A stretch of DNA of 64,000 nt from Candidatus Synechococcus calcipolaris G9 (GTDB lineage Bacteria; Cyanobacteriota; Cyanobacteriia; Thermosynechococcales; Thermosynechococcaceae): positions 365,068-429,067 of the forward strand of contig NZ_JAKKUT010000001.1 of NCBI RefSeq assembly GCF_029582805.1. Direction: 5' to 3'. The notes beneath the pieces were generated by a model. It searched no databases and had not been told where the DNA came from. It saw nothing but the letters and a program-made list of their open reading frames with translations. The position numbers and the translations under genes are program-made. Each line of letters opens with the position of its first letter. Position 1 is the stretch's first letter. Shown in pieces: positions 10,875 to 45,654 of the stretch.

Positions 10875-13563
10875 AACTGAGGGTATCTTGGGGTTCCATC
10901 TCGATGTCGGGTGTCTCACTAAAGAGTAGGTCATTCACCGGGAAGCGATCGAGGAGATAGCGGGCTTGATTCGCGGTTTGACGTAATTGGAGACTGGTAT
11001 GGGGGGCATGGGGAATTTGGGAGAGAAAATCGAGGGTACGCCGCAGCAATCGGACAATGTCCCCCGCATCTAGGTTGGTATTTTGGCAGAGTTCCGGCCA
11101 ACTGACCCCCAGGGCCCAATGCTCCACCAGGCCAATGAGTTCCCATTCAAACCAAATTGGGAAAATAATTTTATGACGGCGTTGCACTTGAAATAATTGC
11201 CGCCGCGTGTGGCGTAAACTGCCTAAACTCTCTTCCACTTCAGGGGCCGTGGGATAATGGGTCCAACTGTCGGAGCGAGGGGTTTCTGTAACTAGGGCTG
11301 CTGCTGCCGCGGCCAAGTGATGGGGAGCCAACCCATCCAATTCGCCGGAGGTCAGAGCCAGGGCTAACCAGAGTTCGTTTTCCCCCCGCAGGGCCGCCGC
11401 CATTTCACCTAGAGGCGTGGGGGATAAGTCCTCTAGTCCACCAAAGTCTTGCAGGGCAGCAATTAAGGCTAAAAAGTTTTCCCAGTGATATTCGGACTGT
11501 TGAAGAAGTTTGGCCTGGCGATCGCCCAGGTCAGCTTCTAGCCGTTGTTGGCGACGCTCTAAGCGCAGGAAATAATTGGGATTCTCCCAGTCCGCCTGGG
11601 CGTCCAATTGGCTCAGTTCCTGAGTGAGTTGCTCCACTAGGGTTTGTTGCTCCAAGACCTCTGGGGGGGGTGTCCAGGGCAGGGTGGGGAATGCCTTCAG
11701 CAGATCATGGAATTCCGGGGGAGCAGCGGTGGAAAAACCAGGTTTTGCCAGGAGGCTGGGCAGGTCAGGGATGGGATTCAGGGGTGGGCGATCGCCATCA
11801 ACGGCAATAACTTGGTTGACTTCGACGACATAGAGCCGTTGATCCTGGGCTAAACAAATTAAAAGGGGAAACTGACCTCGACCCGGCAATTGACCCACTA
11901 AACAAGCTGCCAGGGGCAGGGCATCGTTGGTTTGGGGCTTGAGGGTGATCACCGTTCCCAAGGGAGCCTGGAGGATCAGGGGAGCCAAAGAAGCATTGAG
12001 GGTTTCGTAGGATTGCTGTTGCAGGGTTTTCAGCAGTCGTTGCTCTTGCCGTAGTCGTTCCCGCAGTTTTTGGTATTGTTTCAGGGCGGTGCGATCGATG
12101 TTGCCAAGGCATTCTTTCACCTGATGAAGTTCCGCTTCCACCTCGGCGATCGCCTGACGTTGGGGAGCTAGGTGCAGAGTGGCGATATATTGCCCAAAAC
12201 TGCGTTCAATTAAATCCCGCGCTTCCGTCAACGTATGCCGCTGAAGTAAATTCAAGACCATGCCATAGCTGGGGGTGAATTGGCTAATCAGCGGATCGGG
12301 ACTGGCAGTGGCTAAATAGGCCGCTTCCTTTGCCCCCTCAAAGGGGGTTTGCAGCGTAATCACATGGCCGATCTCATCCATGCCCCGGCGGCCGGCCCGA
12401 CCCGCCATCTGTAAAAATTCTGAGGCAGTAAGGAGACGATGGCCACTATCGGTACGCTTGGAGAGGGTAGAAATCACCGTGGTGCGGGCAGGCATATTAA
12501 TTCCAGCGGCCAAGGTTTCCGTGGCAAAGATCAGTTTAATCAGGCCGGCCTGAAAGAGGGTTTCGATCAGGGTTTTCCAGAGGGGGAGGACTCCGGCATG
12601 GTGGGAGGCAATCCCCTGATAGAGGGGGGCAATCTGGTCTGGAGCTGCAATTTCACGATGCTTGGCTAAAAAATCATCAATGGCCATGGCTAATCGCGAT
12701 CGCTCCTCTGGGGTGAGTAAATTAATCCCCGTCACCTGATTAATCGCCTGATCACAGCCGCGCCGACTAAAAATAAAGTAGATCGCCGGCAACATCTGGC
12801 GTTCCTGAAGCTGTTTAATGACAAAGTTAATATCTAAAAATTCCCGTCGCCCGCGACTCCGACCTTGGGGAGCAGACTTGCCCTGCAAGCGGGGATTCAG
12901 ACGGGTGCGGTTGCCATTGAGCAGGGGGGCTAACCCTTTTTTATTACAAAAATAGAAATGAAGCGGAATCGGTCGCCAATCAGAATAAATTAATCGCGTG
13001 GGGCCATGCACTGCTTGCAACCAATCGGCCATTTGCTGACCATTGGCAATGGTGGCAGACAGGGCAACCAATTGAATTTCCGGTGGGCAGTAGATAATAG
13101 ATTCTTCCCAGACCGTACCCCGCTGGCGATCGTTCATGTAATGGCATTCATCGAGTACCACCGCCTCCACTCCCGTTAAGGAGGTTCCCACTTCGCCAAT
13201 GGGCGTACCGTAGAGCATATTACGAAAAATTTCTGTGGTCATCACCAAAATGGGGGCATCCCGATTAATCGAGACATCCCCAGTGAGTAACCCCACCTGA
13301 TCCAGGCCAAATTGTTGCTGAAAATCCCGTAATTTTTGATTGGATAGGGCCTTGAGGGGAGTGGTATAAAAAACCCGCTGCTGCCGGCTCAGGGCCCGAT
13401 GAATTACATACTCCCCAATCAGGGTTTTGCCGGAACCCGTAGGAGCACACACAACCACGGAACACCGCTCTTCCAGAGCAGCGATCGCCTGGGTTTGAAA
13501 ATCATCTAACTGAAAGGGAAGTTGCTCAATAAAGTCATTGACCCCTACTGAGGAGAAACTCAT
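10840..13563 (-). CDS. DEAD/DEAH-box RNA helicase, Ski2/Mtr4-like
   Basis: A 907-residue superfamily-2 helicase. Motif I is APTGSGKT, motif II is DECH in VVLDECHYMND, motif III is SAT, and motif VI is QMAGRAGRRGMDE. The long C-terminal part, with a coiled coil followed by an rRNA-processing-arch or DSHCT-like region, matches the Ski2-like helicases of cyanobacteria and chloroplasts (ISE2 type), which act in RNA processing. Its ATG overlaps the stop of the pilL gene by four bases (ATGA), so it is translated from the chemosensory message. A role in cold adaptation or RNA turnover is plausible but not shown. Confidence 0.9.
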   Translation of the reverse strand: MSFSSVGVNDFIEQLPFQLDDFQTQAIAALEERCSVVVCAPTGSGKTLIGEYVIHRALSRQQRVFYTTPLKALSNQKLRDFQQQFGLDQVGLLTGDVSINRDAPILVMTTEIFRNMLYGTPIGEVGTSLTGVEAVVLDECHYMNDRQRGTVWEESIIYCPPEIQLVALSATIANGQQMADWLQAVHGPTRLIYSDWRPIPLHFYFCNKKGLAPLLNGNRTRLNPRLQGKSAPQGRSRGRREFLDINFVIKQLQERQMLPAIYFIFSRRGCDQAINQVTGINLLTPEERSRLAMAIDDFLAKHREIAAPDQIAPLYQGIASHHAGVLPLWKTLIETLFQAGLIKLIFATETLAAGINMPARTTVISTLSKRTDSGHRLLTASEFLQMAGRAGRRGMDEIGHVITLQTPFEGAKEAAYLATASPDPLISQFTPSYGMVLNLLQRHTLTEARDLIERSFGQYIATLHLAPQRQAIAEVEAELHQVKECLGNIDRTALKQYQKLRERLRQEQRLLKTLQQQSYETLNASLAPLILQAPLGTVITLKPQTNDALPLAACLVGQLPGRGQFPLLICLAQDQRLYVVEVNQVIAVDGDRPPLNPIPDLPSLLAKPGFSTAAPPEFHDLLKAFPTLPWTPPPEVLEQQTLVEQLTQELSQLDAQADWENPNYFLRLERRQQRLEADLGDRQAKLLQQSEYHWENFLALIAALQDFGGLEDLSPTPLGEMAAALRGENELWLALALTSGELDGLAPHHLAAAAAALVTETPRSDSWTHYPTAPEVEESLGSLRHTRRQLFQVQRRHKIIFPIWFEWELIGLVEHWALGVSWPELCQNTNLDAGDIVRLLRRTLDFLSQIPHAPHTSLQLRQTANQARYLLDRFPVNDLLFSETPDIEMEPQDTLSYDPAPQKSPKN

Positions 13564-16500
13564 GAGGATGCAACGGCGGCATGAACCAAAACTTCTCCCT
13601 GTAGTAGTCGATTGGCCGCATCTAACAACTGTTCTTCCAGGTACGGCTTGGTGAAATAGCCCTTGGCCCCCAGTTGGGCCGCCATTTGTCGGTGGCGATC
13701 GGCCCCACGGGACGTGAGCATGGCAATGGGAAGTTCACTCAGTTTCGGGTCTTTCTGAATTCGGGATAGCAATTCTAAGCCATCCATCCGCGGCATCTCA
13801 ATGTCACAGAAGACCAAATCACAGGGTAAGCCCGACCGCAGTTTTTCCCAGGCATCCTGACCATCCCGTGCTTGCTCCACCCGGAAACCAGCGCGGGTAA
13901 AGGTCATCGACAACAGTTCCCGCACCGTAATTGAGTCATCAATAATCAGTACTAAGGGTTCTGCTTTCTCAGCTTCTATATCTTCCGGAGAGATGATGGG
14001 AGTTCCCCAACCACTTTGATCAACACGATCCAGGGATACATCAATCAACTCCAACACATCGGCGATCGCCATGGCACGGCCATCCCCCTGCACCGTCACC
14101 CCGGCAATGCCTAGGGGTTTGGGAACCGGCCCCGTCAATTGTTTAATCACAATTTCCTGCTCACCAATCACCTGATCCACCCGTACGGCAATGTGATCAT
14201 CCCCACTGCGGAGGACAACCACTGAGACCACATCCTCATCGTGGGAGGCCCCACCATAGACATTGCTACGGCTAATATGACGGCTATAGGGTAAAAGATC
14301 ACTCAGGTTACGGAAGGGTAACGGGCGATCGTGCCAAACCAGAACTTTTTCCTGTTTTTCATTTTCCTGAATCCGCTCTTCCGGCAGGTCTAACATATCC
14401 TCCACCCCATCAATGGGGAAGGCAATCCGGCAGTGATTATCAATACAACAGAGGGCTTTGGTAATGCTCAACGTCACGGGAAGACGAATGGTAAAGGTGG
14501 TTCCCTTGCCTAGGGTGGAATCGGTGTTAATGGTGCCGCGAATTTCTTCTAAGCTGGCCCTCACCACATCCATGCCCACGCCCCGACCCGCTAAATCATC
14601 GGCCTGATCCTTGGTACTAAAACCAGACTGGAACAGAAAGGCATAAATATCTTGGCGGGAGAGGTGCTCGGCATCCCCAGGGGCAAGAAGTCCCTTCTCA
14701 ATGGCCTTAGCCTTAACTCGCTCGGCATCAATACCGCCACCATCATCACTAACGACAATAATCGCCTGGCTACCTTGGTAAAAGGCTCGCAACTTAATAG
14801 TTCCCTTAGGCTTTTTGCCGATAGCTTGGCGGGTTTCCGGTGTTTCAATCCCGTGGTAAATGGCATTATTAATCAAGTGGGTCATGGGATCGTAGAGTCG
14901 CTCCAGAATCCCCTTATCAATTAAGGTGTCTTCCCCTTCAATCACTAACTCGGTGTTTTTACCACAGGCTTGGGAGACTTGCCGCACCGCCCGGGGCAAA
15001 CGACTAGACATTTCCTTAAAGGGCACCATGCGAGAGCGACTCAGCCCTTCCTGCACTTTGGTCGTGACTTGCCGGAACATGCGAGCCACCTGCTCCACTT
15101 CATCCACCACGTACTCAATGTCATCGGCTGCTTCCCGAACCCGGACAATCCGCTCAATGACTTCCTGAGACAGGGTATGGAATCCGGTAAAGTGATCCAT
15201 TTCTAGGGCGTCAAATTCCACCCCTGTGGCATGACTGCGATCGTCGCCATTAGTGCCACCACTGCCCCCAGGACGGCCAAAACGGGAACCAAGAAGTGAA
15301 CTTTCTAACAAGGAGCGATCGTAGAGGTCTTGCATCTGTTGGCTAACATCGCCCAGTTGTTGCACTTGATAGAGCAAATTGTCTAGAAACTGGCGTAACC
15401 GATCCTGGCTATCTTCTAAACCATTCCGGTTGACCACCATTTCCCCAACCAGGTTGCCGAGGCTATCCAAGTGGCGGACAGGAACCCGCATCGTTTGCTC
15501 AACAAGGGATACCTTCTTCTCACGACCACGAGCCAGAGGTTGGGGGCGCCGAGGTGCTGCCACCTCAGGAGTGCGTGGGGTAGGAGTGGAACCTACTAGA
15601 TCCTCTAATTCACCAAAATCAAGTTCAGGCTCAGGTTCCAGAGCAGGGGCAGGAGAATCATCATCCAGAAGAGACTCTAAATCATCAAACTCAACGGGAG
15701 CAGCGATCGCTGGGGCCGGTTCTTCATCCAGGAAAGCCGCCAAATCATCAAAATCTTCCGCTTCAGAGGGGGGAGCCTTGAGGGTAGATTCTGGTTCATT
15801 AAACTCAACGGGAACAGCGATCGCCGAGGCTGGTTCTTCATCCAGAAGAGCCGCCAACTCATCAAAATCCTCTAAGGACTCCGATAGCCCTAAGTCACCG
15901 GCAATCTCGCTAGCAGCCTCAGGAGTGCCGACGGCCGATGCTTCGCTGCCAATAAACTGGGCAAGATCATTATCCTGATCATTATCTGGAAGGGGGGCAG
16001 CTACAGGTTCAGGGTCACCCCAAAAATCTTCATCTAGGGCATTAGATTCAGCATTAGATTCAACGACGGGGGCAGCATTCTCCGCTGGCTCTTCGGTGGT
16101 AAATTGATCAAATATTTCATTGGCATCCCCATCTGCCGCGCCCGTCAGATCTGCTATATCCAAATCCGCCAGATCCAAAGATTCTTGACCGATATCTAAA
16201 TCCCCTAGGGAAACCGCAACAGTCTCACTTTCTTCTAAGACTAGGCTATCTAGAGCTTGGGTTAATTCATCACTATCCCCAAGTAACTCAGCCATGGATT
16301 CGGCTAAATTTCCCGACAGTTCAGCATCCTCAAGATCATCTAGATCGCCCAGATCAGCAAGATCCCCCAGTGCTGAAATGCCATCATCTTCTCCTAACTC
16401 TTCCCCTAGGAGACTATTCAGAAGATCATCCGCTGCCGAATCAGAGGTTTCCTCGAGTAAATCGCTGCCAAAGGCGATCGCCCCCAGGGGATCCGACTCA

Positions 16501-18011
16501 CCTAGTTCGCTATCGTCTATGTCCATCAGACCTGCTAAATCGGACAAGTCTCCCAGATCGGTATCAGCAGACTGGAGAATATCCTCCGTATCCTGCCCTG
16601 ACTGGCTCACAAAGGCGGCTAAATCTAGCTCATCATCAAGGTCACTGTCCTGATCGGTGTCACTTCCTTGGCGATCGCTAACCAGAGCCGCATTAGCTTC
16701 TTCTAGAGCTTCTAGATCAAACTGATGATCCTCCGCTAGGGCCAGATCCCGCTCCGCATCGGCAAATAGATCCGCCAGTTCCCCTTCCTGATCCTGCTCT
16801 TGGTTTTGGGATGTCACCGCCAAGATTTCTGACAGATCTTCATCCAGCAGATCACTATTGTCGCGGTTGAGGTCAGCCAGTTGCTCATCTAGGGCAGCAC
16901 TATCGGCCCACCCACCTTGAAGATCACCCGTCAAGGAGAAAATATCATCGAGTTCCTGTAAATCACCACTTTGTTCAATTTCAAAGTTGGTCATCTCACC
17001 GGAATCTAAATCGTCAGTCGCTAGGCCAAAATCCTCTAAATCCTGAGAGGGTTCATCGGATGCTTCAGATAGGTCTAAGATGGATTCTTCCAGTGACATA
17101 CTCTCTGATGCGCTCTCTGGCTCGGATAACTCCAATGCAGATGGCGTTTCCACGGCGGGTTCCGGCACAAGCACCTCTTCCTCTTCCACCTCCACTGGCG
17201 CAGGAGGTTGGAGGGCGACCATGGCTTCACTGGGCTGAATTTGGCTTGCCTGACCTGCTAAGACCAAATCTCGGGCACTCTTAATATCCTTAATGAGAAC
17301 AGGAGCTAGGGTTGTGAGGGCATTCCCTGAATTCAGCACCCCCTGACGGGCCATCCCTAGGAGAGAGACCCAAGCTGGCAAATCAAAGGTTTCCCCCAGT
17401 TGTCCTAAGCTGACGCAGGCGGCTTCCAATTGCTGGCGGGTAGCCGGGGTATCTCCCTGCTTGAATATTTGCAACATACCCCGTAATCGCTCAGGCACAT
17501 CGGTCTGAAACACAAATTGATAGCTACTATCATCCGGCGTTGCTGGCTTGGCATCCGGAACTGGCTCAGGGGGAATTGGGGCTGTCCCACCACCTACAAG
17601 TTGATTCAGATGAGCTTGGAGAGACTCAAAAACAGGTTCAACCTTTTTCAGGGCTGCATCAGCGATCTCATCCGATAAACCAAAGGGACTTTGGAGTTCA
17701 TCTAGCAGCTCCCGTAGGGTATCAAAGCCCTGCAAGAAAAGATTCTCAAGGGTTTCATCCACCTTAATGGGATGTTCCTTCAGTATCTTGAAGTAATCTT
17801 CTAGTTTATGGGACGTGCTTTGGATACTATAGATGCCCAACATGGCCGCCCCCCCCTTCACGGAGTGAGCCGCCCGAAACATCTCACTCATTGCTTCTGG
17901 ATCATCTACGACCCGCTGCAAATTCATGAGACTTTCTTCGATGGTCATTAAATGCTCTTGGGCTTCTTCGATAAAATAGCCCAGGATTCGTTTTTGTTGA
18001 TCGGTTTGCAT
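13560..18011 (-). CDS. pilL: CheA-type hybrid histidine kinase of the type IV pilus chemosensory system (PilL/HmpE-like)
   Basis: A 1483-residue CheA hybrid. Residues 1-125 form a histidine phosphotransfer domain with His49 in RAAHSVKGGAAMLG. Residues ~265-810 are a very acidic Asp/Leu/Glu-rich region. The dimerisation and ATPase domains follow (N box HLINNAIYHGIE near 1045, DDGGGID near 1090, GRGVGMDVV near 1143), then a CheW-like domain (~1190-1330), then a C-terminal receiver with Asp1403 and Lys1455. In cyanobacteria this kinase controls type IV pilus motility, phototaxis or hormogonium movement. A GGAGG five bases before the ATG sets the start. It lies 14 bases after pilJ. Only one HPt domain is seen. 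Confidence 0.95.
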   Translation of the reverse strand: MQTDQQKRILGYFIEEAQEHLMTIEESLMNLQRVVDDPEAMSEMFRAAHSVKGGAAMLGIYSIQSTSHKLEDYFKILKEHPIKVDETLENLFLQGFDTLRELLDELQSPFGLSDEIADAALKKVEPVFESLQAHLNQLVGGGTAPIPPEPVPDAKPATPDDSSYQFVFQTDVPERLRGMLQIFKQGDTPATRQQLEAACVSLGQLGETFDLPAWVSLLGMARQGVLNSGNALTTLAPVLIKDIKSARDLVLAGQASQIQPSEAMVALQPPAPVEVEEEEVLVPEPAVETPSALELSEPESASESMSLEESILDLSEASDEPSQDLEDFGLATDDLDSGEMTNFEIEQSGDLQELDDIFSLTGDLQGGWADSAALDEQLADLNRDNSDLLDEDLSEILAVTSQNQEQDQEGELADLFADAERDLALAEDHQFDLEALEEANAALVSDRQGSDTDQDSDLDDELDLAAFVSQSGQDTEDILQSADTDLGDLSDLAGLMDIDDSELGESDPLGAIAFGSDLLEETSDSAADDLLNSLLGEELGEDDGISALGDLADLGDLDDLEDAELSGNLAESMAELLGDSDELTQALDSLVLEESETVAVSLGDLDIGQESLDLADLDIADLTGAADGDANEIFDQFTTEEPAENAAPVVESNAESNALDEDFWGDPEPVAAPLPDNDQDNDLAQFIGSEASAVGTPEAASEIAGDLGLSESLEDFDELAALLDEEPASAIAVPVEFNEPESTLKAPPSEAEDFDDLAAFLDEEPAPAIAAPVEFDDLESLLDDDSPAPALEPEPELDFGELEDLVGSTPTPRTPEVAAPRRPQPLARGREKKVSLVEQTMRVPVRHLDSLGNLVGEMVVNRNGLEDSQDRLRQFLDNLLYQVQQLGDVSQQMQDLYDRSLLESSLLGSRFGRPGGSGGTNGDDRSHATGVEFDALEMDHFTGFHTLSQEVIERIVRVREAADDIEYVVDEVEQVARMFRQVTTKVQEGLSRSRMVPFKEMSSRLPRAVRQVSQACGKNTELVIEGEDTLIDKGILERLYDPMTHLINNAIYHGIETPETRQAIGKKPKGTIKLRAFYQGSQAIIVVSDDGGGIDAERVKAKAIEKGLLAPGDAEHLSRQDIYAFLFQSGFSTKDQADDLAGRGVGMDVVRASLEEIRGTINTDSTLGKGTTFTIRLPVTLSITKALCCIDNHCRIAFPIDGVEDMLDLPEERIQENEKQEKVLVWHDRPLPFRNLSDLLPYSRHISRSNVYGGASHDEDVVSVVVLRSGDDHIAVRVDQVIGEQEIVIKQLTGPVPKPLGIAGVTVQGDGRAMAIADVLELIDVSLDRVDQSGWGTPIISPEDIEAEKAEPLVLIIDDSITVRELLSMTFTRAGFRVEQARDGQDAWEKLRSGLPCDLVFCDIEMPRMDGLELLSRIQKDPKLSELPIAMLTSRGADRHRQMAAQLGAKGYFTKPYLEEQLLDAANRLLQGEVLVHAAVASS
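15687..15872 (-). repeat. Duplicated acidic block within pilL
   Basis: Two copies of a ~23-residue block, DFDELAALLDEEPASAIAVP... at residues ~714-737 and DFDDLAAFLDEEPAPAIAAP... at ~752-775. Each copy carries a HIP1 octamer (15817-15824 and 15713-15720) within the AIA codons. A third, partial echo (EFDDLESLLDDD) follows the second copy. Confidence 0.85.
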
Positions 18012-18025
18012 TGCCCCCTCCCGGA

Positions 18026-21000
18026 TTAGCCCTGATCTTCAGTTTGTTCAACGCGGAATTTTTCCACCGATGTTTGCAGACCACGGGCAACGGATACCAA
18101 GCCTTGCAAGGAGTCAGAGACTCGTTGGGCTTCTTGGGAAGTCGCTTGGGCTGTCAATTCCACCGATTGCATCACCTGGGCCATCGAACGTGCTGTTTCG
18201 GTTTGTTCTACCGTAGCATTTGTAATCGATCGCACCAAGGTATCAATTTGCGAGGATACCTGGATAATGTCCTCCAGAGAGCGTTTAGCCTGTTCTGCCC
18301 GTTTTGTCCCGTCAATAACCTGTTGGGTACCTTCCTCCATCGCTGTCATCACTGCCCCGGTCTCACTTTGAATTTGGAGAACGATCTGCTCAATTTCCTT
18401 GGAAGCTTTAGCCGCCCGGTCTGCCAGTTGGCGCACCTCATCCGCCACCACTGCGAAGCCCCGCCCTGATTCACCGGCTCGGGCAGCCTCAATACTGGCG
18501 TTTAAGGCTAATAGGTTGGTTCGAGAGGCAATTTGGGAAATCACACCCACAATCTTGGCAATTTCCTGGGAGGATTCAGCGAGACGTTTCACCTTGCGAG
18601 TGGTTTCTGCCACTGTTTCCCGAATTTGTAGAATACCAGCCACGGTGCGCTCCACCGCCTCACCCCCTTTCAGGGCTGTTTCCGACGCACTTCGAGCCAC
18701 ATCATTGGCTTCCTTGGCACTGTCAGCAACCCGCTGAATCGCGTTGGTCATCATCTGCATTGAGTTGAGGGTTACTGCAAGTTCTTCCGCTTGACGTAGG
18801 GCATCGGAGGATAGGGAACGGGCAAAGGCTTCGTTATCGGCCGCACCTCGGTTCACCTGGCGAGCCGCAACTTTCACCTGTTGCACAATGGTTCGTAGGT
18901 TATGAATCGTCAAGTTGAAGGAGTCCGCTACCGCCCCTAAGACATCGGCGGTTACTTCTGCCTGAACCGTTAGGTCGCCTCGGGCTGCCCCTTCCACATC
19001 GTCTAGCAGTCGGATCACCTGACGCTGAAGATCATCCCGCTGTCGCTCGTTTTCTTCTGCTTTTTTCTGGGCATCCCCCGTAACGGTGAGAATGCTCTCC
19101 GTCATTTGGTTAAAGCTACTGGCTAGCTGGCCAAATTCATCCTCGGAGGTAACGGGAACTTTGGCTGACATATCCCCGCCAATAATGGCATTACACTGGG
19201 CTTGCAAGTCGGTGGTACACCGCTTCATCCGGGCAACGTTTCGCTGGCCGAGGGCAAAACTAGCCACACCCCCTGCCAATCCGGCCGCTGCACCTGCTAA
19301 AAGAATCGGCGGCATTTGCGGCCGCTCACTCAGTCCAAAGCCAACCAAACCCGCTGCCAATGCTGAAACCACACCGGTGGTGACGGCCGTTGTCATATTT
19401 TGTTTGCCCAAGGAGGATGGGGCAGAGGGGCGGCCTGTACCAGATGCACTAGAATCACGACCGGTGGCACTTGGCGAAGGACTACTTGCAGCGTCTCCCC
19501 CAGCCGATTTTGCCGGCTTGCTCACTACACTTCCCAGGGTTGAGGCTTCCTGGCCAATAGGCTCCGGCATCTCAGCAATGTTGGTCCAGGCACTCATTTC
19601 CGCCGCTAGGTCTTCCTGGGATACCTCTGGAGGCTCTAGTTCAAGGGGGGAGTCGGCATCTAAACTAAAGTCCAGATCAGCTAGGCCTTCACTCGCGCCT
19701 AGTTCTCCAGGTAAAACGGCAAAGGTTTCAGTGCCACCATCTTGGTGCAGGGTATCAGGGTCAAAATTTTGCACCTGGGGATTGGCAATGGTGAGATCAT
19801 CATCCCCATCGAAGTCAAAACTATCATTGGATAAATCTAGATCATCAAATTCGGGTAAGTCCGCGAGGGCTTGGGCTGCTTCATCTTCTTCGGGGACAGA
19901 GAAGGTATCGGGGGATGGGGCGGGAAAGTTGGCTCCAAAGGCCATGGTGGCATCATTCTCATCCATGATCAGGGTTTGATCAAACTGCTCAGGACTCAAG
20001 GATTCAGCTACAATGCCAGCTTCCTCAAAGTCAAGGTTGGGTAGAGGAGTTTCAGCCTCGGGGTGGTCACTACCACCGAAGTCGTCGAAGAGGCTTTCGG
20101 CTTCGTCTATCTCTCCATACTCTGCTTCTCCATACGCTGCCAGAGGTTCTTCCGCTGCAACGGTCTCTGGAAAAAGTGCAGCATCACCAAAATCGGGATC
20201 AAGATCGTGATCTTCCTCGGAGGCCTGGGCAAATAAATCACTAATGCCATCACTTATGTCTGCGGGAGTGGCTTCCAGGATATCTGCGGATTCAGGGAGT
20301 TCTTCTAGGAGGTCTGTTTCAGAGGTAAAGAGGGCATCGCCTGCAAAACTTTCCTCGGAAACCTCTGTTTCAGCGATCGCCGATCCTAGGTCAAGGGATG
20401 CACCTGCTTCAGATTCAGGGCCGCCAAAGTCAAATAGCCCTTGATCCTGATCACTGATTTCTAGATCATTGATTTCCAGATTATCTAGTTCAAAATCTGC
20501 GGATAGAGCATCAGTCCCTAGGGGAGATTCACCCATGGCTATAGTGAGGTCATCGTCTCCCATACCTGATCCCATGTCCAGTGGAGAGGACTCTGGAGAT
20601 CCTAGGGGAGAGGCATCCATGGCCATGGTGAGATCATCGTCATTATCGTCAAATTGATCGGTGACGGCAATCTCTTCTGAGAGTTCGGGAAGGTCACCAA
20701 AGGGGTCCTCAAAGGAAATTTCTGCCCCAAGGTCAGCACCACCAAAATTTCCCAGATTGTCTAAATCTCCTAAATCTCCCAAATCTTGGTGACCTAGGGC
20801 AAAGGGATCTCCCGTGGGGGGGTCGGTCGTGGAATCAAATTGGGCTTGGGGATCAAAGTTAAACAACTCCTGATCCGATACATCTGCGCCTACGGAATCG
20901 ATGGCTTCAAGGGAGTCGCCAAAGGCATTTTCAGGATCGGCAGGACTGGGACTGCCCAAGTCTAAATCCGCGGGCATATTGGATTGTAGAACAGTGTAAT

Positions 21001-21373
21001 CGCTTTGAATGCTAGTCTGGGAGTCCTCTTGCCATTGGGCACTTCCATTGCCATTGCCGGTATTGACGGATTCTGCACTATCCTGACTGGGCTGGGAGGC
21101 GACCATATCTTGAATTTTGGCAAGACTTTCATTAGCGCAACTAATTAACTCTGTATCTGTCGTTAGAGTAAGAACCCTCTGGTACTCTTCGTGGGCCGCG
21201 TCATATTCTTGCTGACAACAGTAAATATGCCCCCGGAGTAAACGCAGATTTGGATCATCTGGCCGGGTAGTGACGAGACCATCAGTAATGGTGGCAGCTT
21301 GGTCGTATTGCCCTTGGACGTAGGCACTGACAGCTTTTGTATATTCTTGGCTATGTTGAGTGGTTGATGCCAT
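18026..21373 (-). CDS. pilJ: Methyl-accepting chemotaxis protein of the pilus system (PilJ/HmpD-like)
   Basis: A 1115-residue receptor. Residues ~5-75 resemble TPR repeats. Residues ~130-600 are acidic and low in complexity. Two adjacent membrane helices lie at ~661-681 and ~690-708, leaving almost no periplasmic domain. Two HAMP-like segments follow (~715-765 and ~785-830), then the signalling coiled coil with the conserved tip [20 protein letters not shown] near 948-967. In known systems it signals through CheW to the CheA kinase to control pilus extension and direction. The lack of a periplasmic sensor suggests that input is cytoplasmic, possibly through the TPR and acidic regions. Confidence 0.95.
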
Positions 21374-21508: not shown

Positions 21509-22039
21509 TTAAGCTCCCCAGCGGGCACTACGAAGAATCGTGATCGGATCTAACAGCTTGAGGGTTTGCTCTTCCTCTAGATCAAGCACCCATTCTCCCC
21601 GAATAAAGGGAGCCATTTTGTCATTGAGATTACTAGAGGGGCGGATGGTATCACTATCGAGCCATTCCATCCCTTTCACCTCATCTACCGCTAGACCCAC
21701 GATCATCTCCTCATCTTCGATGGCAATCACGACCATTTCTGGGCGATCGGTATTGATGGGGGTTTCATCACCCAGGAATTGCCCTGTATCAGCAACCCAG
21801 ATGACCTGACCCCGAAGGTTCAAGATGCCCAGTAATAGTGGGGATGTATTGGGTACGGGGGTAATGCGATCGGGCGTTAGGGCAATGACTTCCCGCACCC
21901 CAATGGCCGGCAATGCCAGGGAAATACCGCAGGGAATGCTAAAGAGAATATGCAGATCACCTTCGGGAGCTTTGAGGGCATCCATCTGCCCCCCTTGCAT
22001 TTGTTGGTCACCAGTAAGTAAGTCAGAACTACTGAACAT
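21509..22039 (-). CDS. pilI: CheW-like coupling protein (PilI/HmpC-like)
   Basis: A 176-residue CheW-domain protein that links the PilJ receptor to the PilL kinase. The pattern is clear from about residue 28: ILFSIPCGISLALPAIGVRE, then NTSPLLLGILNLRGQVIWV, the core CheW motif, then VVIAIEDEEMIVGLAVDEV and a C-terminal LLDPITIL. The first 27 residues are a Gln/Gly-rich lead. It starts six bases after the end of pilH, so the two are likely read together. The 135-base gap to pilJ contains the 13-bp duplication. Confidence 0.93.
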   Translation of the reverse strand: MFSSSDLLTGDQQMQGGQMDALKAPEGDLHILFSIPCGISLALPAIGVREVIALTPDRITPVPNTSPLLLGILNLRGQVIWVADTGQFLGDETPINTDRPEMVVIAIEDEEMIVGLAVDEVKGMEWLDSDTIRPSSNLNDKMAPFIRGEWVLDLEEEQTLKLLDPITILRSARWGA

Positions 22040-22045
22040 ACCTGC

Positions 22046-22411
22046 CTAGCCTCGCAATAGCTGTTTAATCGTACCCACTAACTCTTTTGGTTGAAAGGGC
22101 TTTGTGATATACGCATCAGCCCCCTGCTTCATGCCCCAATAGCGATCAAATTCTTCCCCTTTAGAGCTACAAATCACAACGGGAACATCCTGGGTACGGG
22201 GATCTGACTTGATTGTGCGGCAAACTTCGTAGCCATTCATCCGGGGCATCACAATGTCTAGGACAACAATATCGGGTTTTATATCCTTTAGGAGATCGAC
22301 GGCTTCCATCCCATCACTGGCAATGGAGACCTCTAAACCACTTTTGGCTAGGAGTTCACTAATCATTTCCCGCTGGGGGGCACTATCTTCAACGACTAAC
22401 ACAGTACTCAT
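22046..22411 (-). CDS. pilH: CheY-like response regulator (PilH/HmpB-like)
   Basis: A single receiver domain of 121 residues. Acid-pocket residues are Glu8 and Asp9 (VVEDS), the phosphoacceptor is Asp52 (VLDIVMPRMNGYE), and Lys104 (YITKPFQPKE) completes the site. It has no output domain, so it works by protein contact, as PilH/CheY does in pilus switching or as a phosphate sink for PilL. It is the second gene of the cluster, 171 bases after pilG and directly before pilI. Confidence 0.93.
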   Translation of the reverse strand: MSTVLVVEDSAPQREMISELLAKSGLEVSIASDGMEAVDLLKDIKPDIVVLDIVMPRMNGYEVCRTIKSDPRTQDVPVVICSSKGEEFDRYWGMKQGADAYITKPFQPKELVGTIKQLLRG

Positions 22412-22582: not shown

Positions 22583-23788
22583 TTATTGACCTGCCAGGGT
22601 TTCACCAGATGTTTTCTGTTCTAGCACGTCATTGAGAATTTGGTCGGAATTGCCATGGGCAGGATTGGCACAACCAATATAGCGACGGGTCATTGTTAAT
22701 AATTCTGTACTCGTAAAGGGCTTACTCAAGTAATCCGTTGCTCCGGCAATGTTGGCTCGCAGGCGATCGGGTAAGCCGACTAGGCTCGTTAACATAATGA
22801 TGGGGGTGTAACGAAAGCGGGGGGTATGGCGGAGCATGGTGCAAAAGTCGTAGCCATCAAGTTCGGGCATGGCAATGTCACAGAGGATGAGATCGGGATT
22901 TAGCTGAAAGATCAAGCTCAGGGCTTTGAGGGGATGGGCGATCGCCGTGGCTTCGTAACCGGCATTTTTCAGGGTCAACTCCACTACTTGTCGTACCGTG
23001 GCCGCATCATCAATGCAGACAATCCGTGGGGACTCCCGCAGGGGAATTGGGGATAGGGGCATGAGATAGCCACTGGGCAGGGGAGAGTTGAGTTGGATTA
23101 GTCCCTGTTGCAGGTAGGGAGAAAGGACTTTCCCGACACTGGTTAAATCTCGGCCCAGTCGCCGACTTAACTGCCGTAGGCTTAAATGTTCACCGGCCCA
23201 GTTTTCGAGGTACTTTAGTCGACTTTCCGGAAGGATGCGGTGGAGTTCAGTGGCGTTGGCAAGATCAAGTTGCTGATCGGCGGAGCGAATATAGGGATAC
23301 AGTTTTTTCCATTCCCGCAGTTGCACAAGGGTGTCGTTCAGTAAACTCACGAGGGGCAAACTGGCGAGTTGGGGCGAAAGGGCAGCGGTCAGACGAAAGC
23401 AAAACCAGCCGCGATAGAGGGAGGCAACATCAAATAGGGCTTCCCGAATCACACTGCGCCATAGGGTCTGAATTTGGGCTAAATTCCGATGCTGAAGGAG
23501 CCACCACAAACATTCGTACTCCGGCCAACCACTGCCAGCGGTGGTTTCTACGAGGGGATGATCGTTGTTGAGGTTGGGCCAGTCGATCCCTTGGCCATAG
23601 AGGAGATCCTGTAACCGCTCTAGACCTTGACTATGGCGATCGGCAATGTAGAGTAAACGACCATGGTAAAGGAACAGTAGCCAAACATTCCCGGCTTCAT
23701 CATCCACATAGAGTTCGCCCGTTCGCTGGGCCAGGGAAAGGCTCTGGAACAAACTGTAAAGATCAATATCGCTGAGACGGCCTTCCAT
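22583..23788 (-). CDS. pilG: PatA-type response regulator (PilG/HmpA-like)
   Basis: A 401-residue regulator. Residues 1-~165 match the PATAN (DUF4388) domain: MEGRLSDIDLYSLFQSLSLA and the GELYV/GRLLYIAD strands. Residues ~185-240 look like a winged helix (LSLRQLSRRLGRDLTSVGKV). A receiver follows at ~255-375 with Asp260-Asp261, Asp304 (CDIAMPELDGYDF) and Lys356 (LSKPF). PATAN regulators in cyanobacteria act in directional pilus motility and, in PatA, in heterocyst patterning. It heads the chemosensory cluster, 73 bases after ftsI. Confidence 0.92.
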   Translation of the reverse strand: MEGRLSDIDLYSLFQSLSLAQRTGELYVDDEAGNVWLLFLYHGRLLYIADRHSQGLERLQDLLYGQGIDWPNLNNDHPLVETTAGSGWPEYECLWWLLQHRNLAQIQTLWRSVIREALFDVASLYRGWFCFRLTAALSPQLASLPLVSLLNDTLVQLREWKKLYPYIRSADQQLDLANATELHRILPESRLKYLENWAGEHLSLRQLSRRLGRDLTSVGKVLSPYLQQGLIQLNSPLPSGYLMPLSPIPLRESPRIVCIDDAATVRQVVELTLKNAGYEATAIAHPLKALSLIFQLNPDLILCDIAMPELDGYDFCTMLRHTPRFRYTPIIMLTSLVGLPDRLRANIAGATDYLSKPFTSTELLTMTRRYIGCANPAHGNSDQILNDVLEQKTSGETLAGQ

Positions 23789-36657: not shown

Positions 36658-37875
36658 TCAGGATGGTAAACAGGCCCGTAGAGCTTGAGCTAAGACAAGG
36701 GCCGTAGGATAGCGATCGATCAGGCGGGGTTCTGTGGCCTGATGAATCACTTGACGCAAGGGTTCGGGGATACTCGATTCCTCTAGAATTTGTAGGCGGT
36801 GTACCCCTTGACGGTGGCGATAAAACCGAATTGGACTATCCCCCATCAGTAAAAAGACGAGGGTTGCGCCCACGGCATAAATATCGGACTGGGTATGGGG
36901 ATTTCCCATCATTTGCTCTGGGGCACTGTAGCCTTCTACGGCAATCCGAGTTCCGGGGGAATGGCCCGCTTCCTTCACCGCCCCAAAGTCAATTAATACC
37001 ACTTGATTGTCCCGCGATCGCACCAGAAGATTACTGGGCTTAAGATCTCGATGGATAACAGGCGGGTCTTGGCCATGGATATAGTCTAGGATGCCGCAGG
37101 CCTGTAACATCCACTGAATGGCTTGGACAGGATCCACCGGCCCATTGCGAAGCACCCACCGCTCTAAATCCAGACCATGGATGAGTTCCATGACCAGATA
37201 TTTTTTGTTATTCTCGACAAAGTAATCATAAAATGTTGGAATCCCAGCATAACAGAGAGATTGCAAAATCCGGGCTTCCCGCTCAAATAGTTCCTGGGCC
37301 TTCTCGACCGATTCCATATCTGCCCGTAGCTCTTTGAGTACCCGCACTTCTGGTAAGCCTTTGCGGGGCGAGGGTTCAGTATGTTGCTGACAAACTAAAT
37401 AGGTTGTTCCCATCCCACCGTGGCCCAAAAGTCGCAGCACTTGATAATCCCGAATTGTCCGCTGGACATTGAGGGGTTCGCCACAGTGAATACAAAACAA
37501 ATTCCCTGGCACATTCCCCACATGGGTACATCCCGCCAAGGTAGGGGCACTTCGTTTTTGGTGCTGCTCCAGAAACTGAATAATGGGCCCCGTCGCCCCC
37601 AGTTGCAGTAAGCTGCCGTTGGATAACGTGCCTTCACTGACAAGTTTGCCATCTAAAAATGTGCCCATGGTGCCACAACTCTTCAGATACCAGCGACCCA
37701 GGTTTTCGGGATCTCGATAGCAAGCTAATTCAGTGTGATACCGGCCGATTAAAATGTCATTCAAAATTACATCATTATCCGCTGCCCGCCCAATTCGGAT
37801 TAACGTTTTCAGGGGAAACCGCCATGTTTTAACTGGCGTGCGCTTCCAAGGGTCTAAGAGGTGCAGGATAATCAC
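36658..37875 (-). CDS. Ser/Thr protein kinase with N-terminal FHA domain and zinc ribbon
   Basis: A 405-residue kinase. Residues ~20-100 form an FHA domain (IGRAADNDVIL, then GRYHTEL with His47), which binds phosphothreonine. A zinc-ribbon-like motif follows with Cys116, Cys128 and Cys131 (CIHCGEPL). The kinase domain starts near 143: glycine loop GHGGMG, Lys181 (VLKEL), HRDLKPSN with Asp277, and DFGAVK with Asp297. The EGYSAPEQM segment is the usual P+1 region. It ends soon after the catalytic domain, with no membrane anchor. It lies 55 bases after a PP2C phosphatase gene, so the two likely form a reversible phosphorylation pair. Confidence 0.92.
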   Translation of the reverse strand: MIILHLLDPWKRTPVKTWRFPLKTLIRIGRAADNDVILNDILIGRYHTELACYRDPENLGRWYLKSCGTMGTFLDGKLVSEGTLSNGSLLQLGATGPIIQFLEQHQKRSAPTLAGCTHVGNVPGNLFCIHCGEPLNVQRTIRDYQVLRLLGHGGMGTTYLVCQQHTEPSPRKGLPEVRVLKELRADMESVEKAQELFEREARILQSLCYAGIPTFYDYFVENNKKYLVMELIHGLDLERWVLRNGPVDPVQAIQWMLQACGILDYIHGQDPPVIHRDLKPSNLLVRSRDNQVVLIDFGAVKEAGHSPGTRIAVEGYSAPEQMMGNPHTQSDIYAVGATLVFLLMGDSPIRFYRHRQGVHRLQILEESSIPEPLRQVIHQATEPRLIDRYPTALVLAQALRACLPS

Positions 37876-37930: not shown

Positions 37931-40072
37931 TTAAAACAAATAATTAAGTTGCGATCGCAGTTTCATGCGGGCAGCAATCACCGTTAAATTATCATGACCA
38001 TTAAATTCATTCCCCAATTGAACGAGTTGATAGACTCCCTGGCGTAAATCCGCCTTAAAATCTAGCATAGGTAGGATATGACTCACCACATGGGATTCTA
38101 AGCAACGATTATCCGTCAAACCATCGGAGCAAAGTAACAGCAGGGTATCCTCGTGAACCTCAATATCATAAACATCGGGAGATAGGGCATTGCTATTCCG
38201 GGGGCCAAGGGCCTGGGTGAGTTGGTAGGCATCGGGGCGACCATAGGCAATCTCTGGCTCAACCCCCTGTTGAATAAATCGCTGCCCTACTTCATGATCC
38301 ACGGTAATTTGTTCTAGACCTAGGCGTTTACTAAATCGATAGACACGACTATCACCAACATGGCCAATGCGGATCATAGAACCCTGAACAAGGGCGGCAA
38401 TCAAGGTGGTTCCCATGCGGCCACTGCCGGTCTTGGATTTATCTTCATTCACACTGAAAATAGCTTGGTTAGCTCGCAAAATCCCTTCTCGAAATAGGGT
38501 GGCATCGGGTAACGGGGATTGCCACGGCCAAAACTCTTCAAAATAATCACATAGGGTTTTAGCCGCCAAGGAACTGGCAACTTCCCCCTCGGCGTGGCCG
38601 CCCATCCCATCGCAGACAATATACAACCCCTCCGCCTGAACCTGCTGACCACTGGAGGTAAACCATTGTTTTTGACGATTATGAATTAGGAAAAAGTCTT
38701 CGTTGTGGTGTCGTTCACGACCGGTATCGGTATGGCCGAAAACTTCTAGGCAAACCACCTGCTTGGGTAAAACTGCGGTGGGGGCATCATCGGCGGCGGT
38801 GGCATCCTCCAACTCATCCATTGTCAGGATGCCCATATCCTCCTCATCTGGACTGATATCCCCCGTGTCATCCTCTATATCTGCCCCATCCCCGCCATCT
38901 ATTTCATCTCTTTCATCAATAATTTCATTGGTATCCCTTGCCCCCATATCCTCCCCAATCTCTGTGTCTAAGGAGAGGAGAAGATCACTTTGCAGGGTTT
39001 CCGCCAAATCATCCAAAAGGTTTTGCAACTCTAAAATACTCGTCACTGGCTGACTGGCGAGACAGGCTAGAAGGGGCGAAAAAGAGGTCTGACGGCGAGG
39101 GGTGGTCAGTTCAAAGAGTTTTTGCCATGCCTTGACCAAGGGTAATTGCTGCTCAGGCACAATGCGACGAACACCAATGACCTGCTCGACGAATTCCGGG
39201 GTGGGGTCGGAAATGGGATCAAAGGACAACTGGCGCAGATAAAGGGTGCGATCGCTGCGGACACAAATATTATCCTCAATGATCAAGGAGGCACTACAGC
39301 CCCAGGGTTCTAGCCCCTGCCAAATCTCAAGCATATCCTCTAGCCAACGGAAGATTGCCTGATCGGGAATGGTTTCATCGCGCCACAGTTGACTTAGGGG
39401 TTGGGCCTGGGGATCAAATCCCAACGCCACACCCTGGCATTTGCCGGTTAACTTATCAATGGAATGATTGTCTGTCCAAATATCATGGAGTTCGGGGATG
39501 GTCTCTGGCATCAGTAAATGTAGGGTGAGATAGGCCACTCCCAGGGGGCTGAACTCAGGAACATAGCATTGAAATTGCTTAATGATCTGTTCGGGTTCGC
39601 TGGGATCCAATTCATGGCCCCACTGACTGAGGCTCTCCAACACCGGGGCGATCGCCGTGGGCCAATCCGGGGTCATATCTTCAACAAACTGGGGTTGATC
39701 TTCGGGTAAACCCGCTTGATAGCGACGGTAGCGTTGTTGGGGATCGGCGTAGAGGGGCGTACTGGGAGGTTGGGTGTCCTCGTCAATTTCTACTTCAGTG
39801 ACTCCCCTGTGGGCACAGTTTAGCCAAAAATTGTTTACTTCATCGGGGTAAATAACGGTCCACCAGTAGGAGGGAGGATTGTCCTCCGGAGATTGATCGA
39901 CATCCGCAGATTCAGTAGATTCCAATGCAGATTGTTCTGGAGATTGTTCAGTATCGTATTGGGATTGCGCCGCCATAGATTCTGCCGCCGTAGATTCTAA
40001 AGTTGGTTCGGTAGGAACGTCACGATTATTATTCATTGTAGGTACGGCTCTGGACGCATCAGTAGAAGGCAC
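37931..40072 (-). CDS. PP2C-type Ser/Thr phosphatase with long N-terminal region
   Basis: A 713-residue protein if started at GTG 40072; an ATG at 40036 would give 701. Neither has a clear ribosome site. Residues ~60-360 are an unrecognised domain, followed by an acidic linker (~370-430). The PP2C domain begins near 443 with HTDTGRERHHNEDFF; metal-binding residues include Asp488 (VCDGMGGH), Asp650 (CSDGLTD) and Asp694 (GHDNLTV), and GHVGDSRVYR is present. It should remove phosphate from Ser/Thr, plausibly on targets of the adjacent FHA kinase or on the kinase itself. The N-terminal Gln/Glu/Ser-rich 50 residues look disordered. Confidence 0.92.
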   Translation of the reverse strand: MPSTDASRAVPTMNNNRDVPTEPTLESTAAESMAAQSQYDTEQSPEQSALESTESADVDQSPEDNPPSYWWTVIYPDEVNNFWLNCAHRGVTEVEIDEDTQPPSTPLYADPQQRYRRYQAGLPEDQPQFVEDMTPDWPTAIAPVLESLSQWGHELDPSEPEQIIKQFQCYVPEFSPLGVAYLTLHLLMPETIPELHDIWTDNHSIDKLTGKCQGVALGFDPQAQPLSQLWRDETIPDQAIFRWLEDMLEIWQGLEPWGCSASLIIEDNICVRSDRTLYLRQLSFDPISDPTPEFVEQVIGVRRIVPEQQLPLVKAWQKLFELTTPRRQTSFSPLLACLASQPVTSILELQNLLDDLAETLQSDLLLSLDTEIGEDMGARDTNEIIDERDEIDGGDGADIEDDTGDISPDEEDMGILTMDELEDATAADDAPTAVLPKQVVCLEVFGHTDTGRERHHNEDFFLIHNRQKQWFTSSGQQVQAEGLYIVCDGMGGHAEGEVASSLAAKTLCDYFEEFWPWQSPLPDATLFREGILRANQAIFSVNEDKSKTGSGRMGTTLIAALVQGSMIRIGHVGDSRVYRFSKRLGLEQITVDHEVGQRFIQQGVEPEIAYGRPDAYQLTQALGPRNSNALSPDVYDIEVHEDTLLLLCSDGLTDNRCLESHVVSHILPMLDFKADLRQGVYQLVQLGNEFNGHDNLTVIAARMKLRSQLNYLF

Positions 40073-44253: not shown

Positions 44254-45654
44254 TTATTTTTTGATTTGGACTTTTAGCCAACCACTGAGACGCTCAGCTA
44301 ACCATTCCAATTCCGGTTCCTTTAAGCGTCCATTTTCCCCTAGTTCAATTTTCTTCGTTCCAGCCCACAAAATAATATGGGGATTCACCTGGACAATATC
44401 GCCATCACTGTCTTTGCGTCTGGATTGACGGTTAAATTCTAGTTGACCAATGGCGTAACGGGGTGCTTGGATCCCCCTAGAGCAGGGAAAACCAAACATC
44501 TCACGGCGGAATCGAATATCGGTTTTGGTGATGCGCAGCCGCACTTGGCCAAATAATGTAAAAAGAATGAACCAAATTAAGCCGAGACCAACCGCCAGAT
44601 GACCCGACGCAAATAGGGCCGCAAACCAACCAAACTCACTCCAACTGGCAATGGCAATGCTATACCACATCACTAAAAAAGAATTCCAGGCGATCGCAAA
44701 GAAGCCAATGGGAATTAAACCTAGATGAAACCCATGGGGCGGAATCAAAATTTCTAGAACCTCCGGGGTTTCCCGCAACTGCACCGTAGAGCCAAGGGGA
44801 CGAGTGAGTTTTCCAGTGGTTTGGGGGGCTGTTTTTGGGGTAGATAGACCAGAAGTCAGGGCATGGAGGGCTTGGCTTGCGGAGGAAAATCGTTGCTCTA
44901 GGGCCGGATCCGTGAGGGTTTCTAACCAGTGAACCATGGAGGGCCGCAAGGACACATAACCCTGAAAGAGTCGCCGCATTTGTTTTTGCGGTAGGGAATC
45001 GGGAGAGCGGCCACTGGCCAGATAAATCAAGGTTGCCCCCAAACCATACAAATCCGAGGCGGGTACGGTGTGGCCACCAAACTGCTCCGGCGGCATATAG
45101 CCATAGGTGCCGACAATGGTACGGGTTCCCCCCTGATGACTGGTCTGAACCGAACCAAAATCAACCAAATAAATACTGCCAGGGCTGTGGCCACTGCGAT
45201 CGCCCAGGAGAATATTACTGGGTTTAATATCCCGATGGATGACGGGGGGAAAGCGGCCATGGAGATAGATCAAAATATCCAGTAAATCCCTGGCAATCCG
45301 GTGCAGATCCTCCTCAGAAAAATGTCGCCCTTGGTTCAGCCATTCCTGGAGCGATGGAGCCGGAATATAGGTCTGAACCAAGCCAAATCCTTTCCCTAAC
45401 TCGGTTTCAATATCAAAATAGTCTAGGTAGCGAGGAATGGCTGGGTGATCTAAGGACTTAAGAACCTCGGCTTCCCGTTCAAACAGTTTCAGATCATCCC
45501 AATTGAAATCCGGGCCGAAGAGGAGTAATTTTATGACGACCTGTTGCCCCGTGCCCTGATCTTGGGCTAAATAGGTGCGTCGCCCCGTTTGCTTTCCCAA
45601 AAGGGTGGTCAGCCGGTAGCGATCGCCGAGAACCTGATCCACCAAAGCATCCAT
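44254..45654 (-). CDS. Ser/Thr protein kinase with C-terminal membrane domain
   Basis: A 466-residue kinase. The catalytic domain (residues 12-~265) has Lys42, HRDIKPSN with Asp142, and DFGSVQ with Asp165, then GTYGYMPPEQFGG. The glycine loop is irregular (LLGKQTGRRTYLA) and lacks the usual GxGxxG, a feature of a cyanobacterial subgroup. Two membrane helices lie at ~310-335 and ~343-370, followed by ~95 residues that resemble a PH-like lipid-binding fold. The targets are unknown. It is 65 bases after hisC on the same strand. Confidence 0.9.
   Translation of the reverse strand: MDALVDQVLGDRYRLTTLLGKQTGRRTYLAQDQGTGQQVVIKLLLFGPDFNWDDLKLFEREAEVLKSLDHPAIPRYLDYFDIETELGKGFGLVQTYIPAPSLQEWLNQGRHFSEEDLHRIARDLLDILIYLHGRFPPVIHRDIKPSNILLGDRSGHSPGSIYLVDFGSVQTSHQGGTRTIVGTYGYMPPEQFGGHTVPASDLYGLGATLIYLASGRSPDSLPQKQMRRLFQGYVSLRPSMVHWLETLTDPALEQRFSSASQALHALTSGLSTPKTAPQTTGKLTRPLGSTVQLRETPEVLEILIPPHGFHLGLIPIGFFAIAWNSFLVMWYSIAIASWSEFGWFAALFASGHLAVGLGLIWFILFTLFGQVRLRITKTDIRFRREMFGFPCSRGIQAPRYAIGQLEFNRQSRRKDSDGDIVQVNPHIILWAGTKKIELGENGRLKEPELEWLAERLSGWLKVQIKK

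Follow-up and report, generated by a model that had tools for sequence, protein, structure and literature searches.

A conserved threonine motif in the disordered arm of cyanobacterial PilJ, a plausible kinase site for FHA docking

A PilJ-type chemoreceptor encoded in a 64,000-nucleotide stretch of Candidatus Synechococcus calcipolaris G9 (contig NZ_JAKKUT010000001.1, positions 365,068 to 429,067; hereafter the window) carries a repeated acidic-threonine-hydrophobic motif that, judging from its orthologues, is an old, functional short linear motif, much older than the window's genome. We give a probability of about 0.5 to the reading that a Ser/Thr kinase phosphorylates this site and an FHA domain then docks there. 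In such a scheme, a Hanks-type Ser/Thr kinase would phosphorylate the threonine of the consensus [DE][DE]xT[LIM][FLA]M, which follows acidic residues in a probably cytosolic, disordered arm of PilJ; an FHA domain would then bind the phosphothreonine together with the hydrophobic residue three positions downstream (T+3), and the FHA protein would thereby be recruited to the receptor array. Kinases could in this way act on the pilus motility system through a second input, or receive a second output from it, and the up to five copies in the window's close family could strengthen binding or grade the response. That Synechocystis motility requires Ser/Thr kinases has been known since about 2001, and the literature passages covered name no target in the chemosensory apparatus. 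A threonine kept in most of the examined PilJ proteins names one residue to mutate and, if it is an FHA site, would join kinase signalling to the chemoreceptor array and suggest where the activator of Cya1 might be sought.

The 1,115-residue PilJ begins with TPR-like helices, followed by a long acidic disordered region, a two-helix membrane hairpin, HAMP and an MCP signalling domain (Table 1). Pfam matches HAMP at residues 723–761 and MCPsignal at residues 890–1071, and TPR matches score under their curated cut-offs. An AlphaFold model of residues 1–760, built with 29 sequences as input, predicts that the motif-bearing region is exposed and disordered, and this N-terminal arm should lie on the cytosolic side because the protein has two membrane helices and a cytosolic signalling domain. 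Pseudomonas PilJ carries PilJ sensor domains; the window's PilJ has no Pfam match to these at E 0.01, with a short hairpin instead, nor any Pfam match to an FHA domain. Its signalling domain, HAMP, membrane helices and CheW, CheY, PatA-type and CheA neighbours are those of a Pil/Chp-type receptor, and the five genes make up the usual pilus chemosensory set.

Table 1. Features of the window, in window coordinates.
Feature	Position	Strand	Basis or remark
PilL-type CheA: Hpt, dimerisation, HATPase, CheW, receiver; acidic disordered-looking region without motif	13560..18011	-	Pfam
PilJ-type chemoreceptor, 1115 aa	18026..21373	-	ORF, Pfam, AlphaFold of residues 1-760
PilJ two-helix membrane hairpin running into HAMP, residues 660-731	19181..19396	-	hydropathy; helices 660-678, 690-731
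PilJ disordered acidic region (predicted), residues 104-658	19400..21064	-	AlphaFold pLDDT mostly below 50
Motif copy 5, DDLTIAN (then PQ), T528	19781..19801	-	matches close relatives' second conserved Thr site, DEMTIANPQ
Motif copy 4, T476	19937..19963	-	
Motif copy 3, FDQTLIM, T467	19964..19984	-	
Motif copy 2, DDLTIAM, T277	20534..20554	-	column Thr in 99/105 orthologues
Motif copy 1, DDLTMAM, T249	20618..20638	-	
PilJ TPR-like helical domain, residues 2-93	21095..21370	-	five helices, pLDDT mostly 96-98
CheW-type adaptor, pilJ cluster	21509..22039	-	Pfam
CheY-type receiver, pilJ cluster	22046..22411	-	Pfam
PatA/PilG-type regulator (DUF4388 + receiver)	22583..23788	-	Pfam
FHA + Ser/Thr kinase	36658..37875	-	full-length relatives in 12/77 genomes
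Ser/Thr kinase	44254..45654	-	

Five acidic-threonine-hydrophobic sites lie in the disordered region (T249, T277, T467, T476 and T528), bearing out the recurrence of a DDLTxAM-like motif reported in a preliminary description of this DNA. The pattern [DE]xT[ILVM]x[MFILVN] occurs five times in the 674-residue N-terminal part against 0.45 expected, a number reached by 0/500 shuffles. The same description had noted DNA similarity around the first two copies; the stretch concerned, 20534–20638, is exactly residues 246–280 and contains an in-register duplication with a spacing of 28 residues, identical at 30/36 nt over the core and 41/69 nt over the wider block. When a 48-nt block at copy 1 is compared with the region's DNA, its best match is copy 2 (37/48) and the next best reaches 26. 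Within the close family of the window's genome, the number of sites has grown to a maximum of five. PilL served as a control: its acidic region, 715 residues with 27 threonines, contains no instance of a close variant of the pattern, but as its own shuffle mean is only 0.15, this says little beyond the fact that composition alone seldom yields the motif. The CheR-binding pentapeptide of chemoreceptors is NWETF-like and C-terminal, with aromatic residues; the PilJ motif sits in the N-terminal region and has no aromatic residue before the threonine.

Conservation across orthologues is concentrated at T277. PilJ sequences came from the window, 29 relatives and 80 loci from cyanobacterial records; 108 of these 110 loci gave a PilJ frame (none was retrieved for L109 and L114), and three incomplete frames (L059, L060 and L083) were dropped to leave 105 rows in an unselected N-terminal alignment. 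The T277 column holds threonine in 99/105 rows, and five of the six exceptions belong to one heterocystous group: three Rivularia/Calothrix parasitica rows (Asp), Cylindrospermum (Asn) and Richelia (Gln). The sixth, a serine in L012, is a misplacement, since that protein carries the motif elsewhere. The idea that the threonine is kept while its surroundings drift is accordingly borne out for T277 in most lineages but not for the other four copies, as the T249, T467, T476 and T528 columns show no conservation across the 105 rows. Nor is T277 unique, because several Phe and Pro columns are equally well kept: for conservation it ranks among the top six positions of the disordered region (tied fourth), the others being Phe or Pro. 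In a hand-chosen 29-row alignment T277 was the sole invariant column of the disordered region, with P190, F225, L392 and F509 nearly so; because those rows were hand-chosen and include none of the five motif-less heterocystous rows, the unselected alignment is the one on which we rely.

Outside the window's close relatives, the motif usually occurs in single copy with the consensus [DE][DE]xTLFM (EDETLFM, EDDTLLM, DEITLLM), although two copies are present in five genomes (G036, G047, G063, G076 and G089), and Nostoc has DETLLI, GDETLLIV and similar forms. A strict form, [DE]xT[ILMF][LFAIV]M, is found in 70/108 readable PilJ frames, and the canonical motif in 43/67 genomes, a set that overlaps with the 108 frames. 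We also aligned 85 rows in five separate groups, none of which includes the Calothrix, Rivularia, Richelia or Cylindrospermum rows. Threonine occupies the motif position, with no serine, in 40/40 Leptolyngbya-like rows, in 14/14 rows of Nostoc and near kin, in 11/11 rows from the window's family that fall outside the close genus and, at two sites, in 10/10 rows comprising the window and nine close relatives. Among the 40 Leptolyngbya-like rows, position –2 is acidic in 40/40 and T+3 is Met in 39/40; all four Thr codons are used and 39/40 of the 21-nt contexts are distinct, which argues that selection acts on the peptide and not on the DNA.

The threonine is also strict in its context. In the 105 disordered regions, 110 contexts match [DE]xX[ILMFV][LFIAVY][MI], and their central residue is Thr in 97, Pro in 11, Asp in 1, Asn in 1 and Ser in none, although serine is 2.6 times commoner than threonine in these same regions. 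The 11 Pro-centred contexts look like an unrelated segment beside the membrane. For comparison, the 40-row group has three further common Thr columns, of which two contain serine (5 and 7 rows) and one, at the edge of the TPR-like domain, contains none; absence of serine is also seen at many additional Thr columns of the more closely related groups. FHA domains select threonine over serine and also select the residue at T+3. The PilJ motif has threonine, not serine, at its centre and a selected T+3. The absence of any exchange for serine (0/110) fits FHA domains, and with acidic residues ahead of a strict threonine and selectivity at T+3 the motif has a build similar to that of known FHA ligands. 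The preliminary proposal that the threonine is an FHA-readable kinase site is partly supported, but the motif could not be matched to any particular FHA protein (below).

Some lineages have altered or lost the motif. T+3 is Met in most Leptolyngbya-like rows and Ile in Nostoc, but Leu, Val, Ala, Lys (in L014) or Asn in some lineages, and Phe and Asn in copies 4 and 5 of the window's PilJ; it is hydrophobic but neither Met nor Ile in G042, G064, G033, G071 and G094, and G039 and G058 have EGTVIVP. Nodosilinea-type rows have DDMTVFAP, invariant in 10/10 and with a small residue at T+3, which aligns with T277 yet is also similar to copy 5 in the window and to the close relatives' DEMTIANP site. 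The motif is absent from PilJ in two families, f5 (G032, G057, G070 and G093) and f24 (G051, G065, G078 and G100), whose 8 genomes have 10–16 FHA matches each; two were checked for kinases and have 12 (G032) and 32 (G051) matches. It is also absent in the five heterocystous rows (L093, L100, L111, L115 and L116), three of which (L093, L100 and L115, from Rivularia and Calothrix parasitica) have EEDLFF or EEDVFF at the place of a DETLFM-like sequence, with Asp replacing Thr. In a single case, G086 (94% complete), a PilJ without the motif accompanies no FHA match and 7 kinase matches; this is the one PilJ-bearing genome of 77 without an FHA match.

The disordered region has further conserved segments, which may be separate docking sites. 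P190-F191, P224-F225, F509 and F519 are among the best-kept columns of the 105 rows; an acidic-aromatic segment (LDEFDEFDDLG-like) recurs, with FDDL in 78/105 regions; and a segment near the membrane reads ETFAVLP in the window's family. A second, weaker threonine site, QDDQTFVSPS, occurs in the L038-L085 group (Thr in 23 and Ser in 7 of 40 rows) and is similar to DDLTIANP (copy 5).

In the scans done, the motif appears nearly specific to PilJ. TLFM is found in 39/105 disordered regions against 0.25 expected, and a TLFM DNA pattern has 40 matches across 77 genomes versus 8 for the reversed control. PilJ holds 26 of the 40 (24 by frame and two by position). Frames shorter than 70 residues account for eight of the other 14 and frames of 103–267 residues for three; a folded-enzyme-like protein has two and a pentapeptide-repeat protein one. 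This last protein (L181, from G046), which has a tail with DTTLIV that ends in DSEDATLFMADP, is the only clear non-PilJ protein with a tail motif among the 40 matches. Within the window's genome, the DNA pattern GANGANNNNACNNTNNNNATG ([DE][DE]xT, hydrophobic, x, Met) has 7 forward and 7 reversed matches and therefore no overall enrichment; two of the seven are PilJ sites, three fall in what read as TypA-, DnaE- and Crp-like proteins, and two in frames of 19 and 29 residues. The two-acidic-residue form was not found in this genome's own FHA and kinase proteins, of which long genes were covered in part.

These observations can be read in other ways, of which the main rival is a phosphate-free docking motif for a folded partner, such as an array adaptor or regulator, PilJ's own TPR-like domain or a pilus protein, with the threonine fitting a pocket as part of an extended strand. 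We consider this possible, at odds well short of even. The same conservation data fit it: the Leu, Phe and Met core is nearly as well kept as the threonine in the 40-row group, the near confinement of the motif to PilJ is expected of a dedicated partner rather than of a general reader, and a strict threonine could reflect a structural need for its side chain. Less easily accommodated are the retention of acidic flanks and the lack, in the contexts counted, of any exchange of the threonine for Ser, Val or Ile, changes that a plain hydrophobic strand should tolerate.

Alternatively, the threonine might be phosphorylated with no FHA reader involved, the added charge altering the conformation or condensation of the acidic region. 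A very acidic disordered region with several conserved segments is a suitable setting, and three Rivularia/Calothrix parasitica rows have aspartate in place of the threonine, but these rows are one group of relatives, and other exceptions have Asn or Gln; a pure charge effect would moreover accept serine and have no need for Met or Ile at T+3. We consider this reading unlikely. That the repeats are a recent, functionless local duplication in low-complexity acidic sequence strikes us as most improbable: copies 1 and 2 are in-register duplicates and T277 alone is conserved in place, but the depth of conservation in the orthologue alignments and the enrichment over shuffles disfavour it.

For the kinase-FHA reading, candidate writers and readers were considered across the genome. 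Both Ser/Thr kinases that had been singled out in the preliminary description, one of them FHA-bearing, are present (Table 1), but a special role for them is not supported. The genome has 17 kinase matches above cut-off, of which these are two, and 25–26 FHA matches; scanned with home-made profiles tested only on the window's genes, the surroundings of pilJ (up to 6 kb) in 80 loci showed neither a kinase nor an FHA frame. Full-length relatives of the FHA-kinase, at E 1e-50, are found in 12/77 genomes, too few for a general role; any match occurs in 28/77 genomes, and association with the motif gives P = 0.19. We do not favour the window's kinases as writer or reader; a kinase-FHA reading is plausible, and they hold no special claim to the motif. 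A PP2C-type phosphatase gene (37931–40072) directly adjoins the FHA-kinase gene on the same strand, and the two possibly form a kinase-phosphatase pair.

The best-scoring FHA protein of the genome (contig 2, 556878–558053; L118) combines an FHA domain with a class III cyclase. Its best solved relatives are CyaB for the cyclase part (3r5g, presumably from P. aeruginosa; E 1.4e-21) and GarA/OdhI for the FHA part, and we take it as Cya1-type, on the assumption that Synechocystis Cya1 carries an FHA domain. The Gly-Arg, Ser-x-x-His and Asn-Gly positions, which we take to be those that bind phosphothreonine, are kept in the 20 readable of 28 cyclase FHA sequences, including four from the motif-less family f24. 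We compared the presence of motif and cyclase across genomes (counts are motif-positive with/without, then motif-negative with/without the FHA protein). The canonical motif is associated with the cyclase over 66 genomes (41/2/16/7; P = 0.0066) and over 28 families (15/0/7/6; P = 0.0046), and with 20 further genomes of the window's family added (55/6/17/8; P = 0.021), but not when the motif is broadened to Leu, Val or Phe at T+3 (44/7/13/2; P = 1.0). As a control, an FHA-penicillin-binding protein is associated with the motif over 67 genomes (43/0/17/7; P = 0.0004), less so by family (15/0/10/3; P = 0.087). The lists of cyclase-less genomes, added genomes and control proteins were entered by hand; the cyclase counts omit G071, whose gene is cut by a contig end, score G035 and G037 as present though their matches start inside the FHA part, and G098, with one acidic residue before TLIM, is scored as motif-negative. 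No full-length cyclase was found in six motif-bearing genomes (G001, G002, G007, G010, G017 and G069), two of which are 99% (G001) and 100% (G002) complete. The number of FHA matches, compared by motif status, has a median of 13 versus 11 (P = 0.051).

Since the association depends on the definition of the motif and an unrelated control FHA protein does as well, co-occurrence does not identify the reader, and we reject it as sole grounds for assigning that role to the cyclase. The cyclase is nonetheless favoured on function, as a lead rather than a result. We can envisage that the PilJ phosphothreonine docks the FHA domain of the Cya1-type FHA-nucleotide cyclase, so that cAMP would be made at the receptor array, where an FHA tether written by a kinase would keep the enzyme; we consider this a speculative and rather doubtful proposal. 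Were it true, the cyanobacterial pilus chemosensory system would be coupled to cAMP, as that of Pseudomonas is through CyaB, and the role of the cyclase FHA domain would be explained.

The Pil/Chp system of Pseudomonas aeruginosa controls the adenylate cyclase CyaB. It has a receptor cluster homologous to that of pilJ, and CyaB is the solved protein nearest to the catalytic part of the FHA-cyclase; in contrast, cyanobacterial PilJ has a TPR-like and disordered arm with no sensor-domain match, and it is the candidate cyclase that carries FHA. In Synechocystis, motility is described as lost or largely lost in spkA and spkB mutants (passages of PMC11863333). The same is described for a pilJ mutant (a passage of PMC12313861). 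Passages on Cya1 call it crucial for phototaxis and its light receptor unclear (PMC7690835), and report that cya1 mutants lack motility and regain it with cAMP (PMC3546692). SpkA, SpkB and Cya1 are all needed for pilus motility, and the passages of PMC11863333 and PMC7690835 draw no link to PilJ phosphorylation. We found no report of PilJ phosphorylation or of the motif in the titles, abstract openings and passages of the open-licence literature. Term searches of the main texts of two Synechocystis phosphoproteomes (PMC4379935 and PMC7466104) returned no mention of pili or chemotaxis, and the PilJ passages of PMC4110520 and PMC12313861 deal with motility, transformation and mutation of the signalling domain, with no phosphorylation.

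Known bacterial FHA ligands resemble the PilJ motif in part. In Agrobacterium type VI secretion, Fha binds only the phosphorylated form of TssL at DLPpTVVEI (pThr14; passages of PMC3953482). TssL shares with PilJ a membrane location within a surface machine and a threonine site in its N-terminal part, although the machine is a different one and phosphorylation of the PilJ site is a proposal. The substrate peptide of OdhI/GarA in Actinobacteria, SDEVTVETTSVFRADFL (passages of PMC8546545), an N-terminal phosphothreonine peptide paired with the kinase PknG, shares with PilJ acidic residues before the threonine, hydrophobic residues after it and a disordered segment; there, the FHA domain is part of the same protein, whereas PilJ has none. 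In DgcB of Bdellovibrio, which combines FHA with GGDEF, a threonine in a disordered tail is bound by the FHA domain of a second-messenger enzyme (passages of PMC6733907), tail and FHA domain being joined in one protein, unlike in PilJ.
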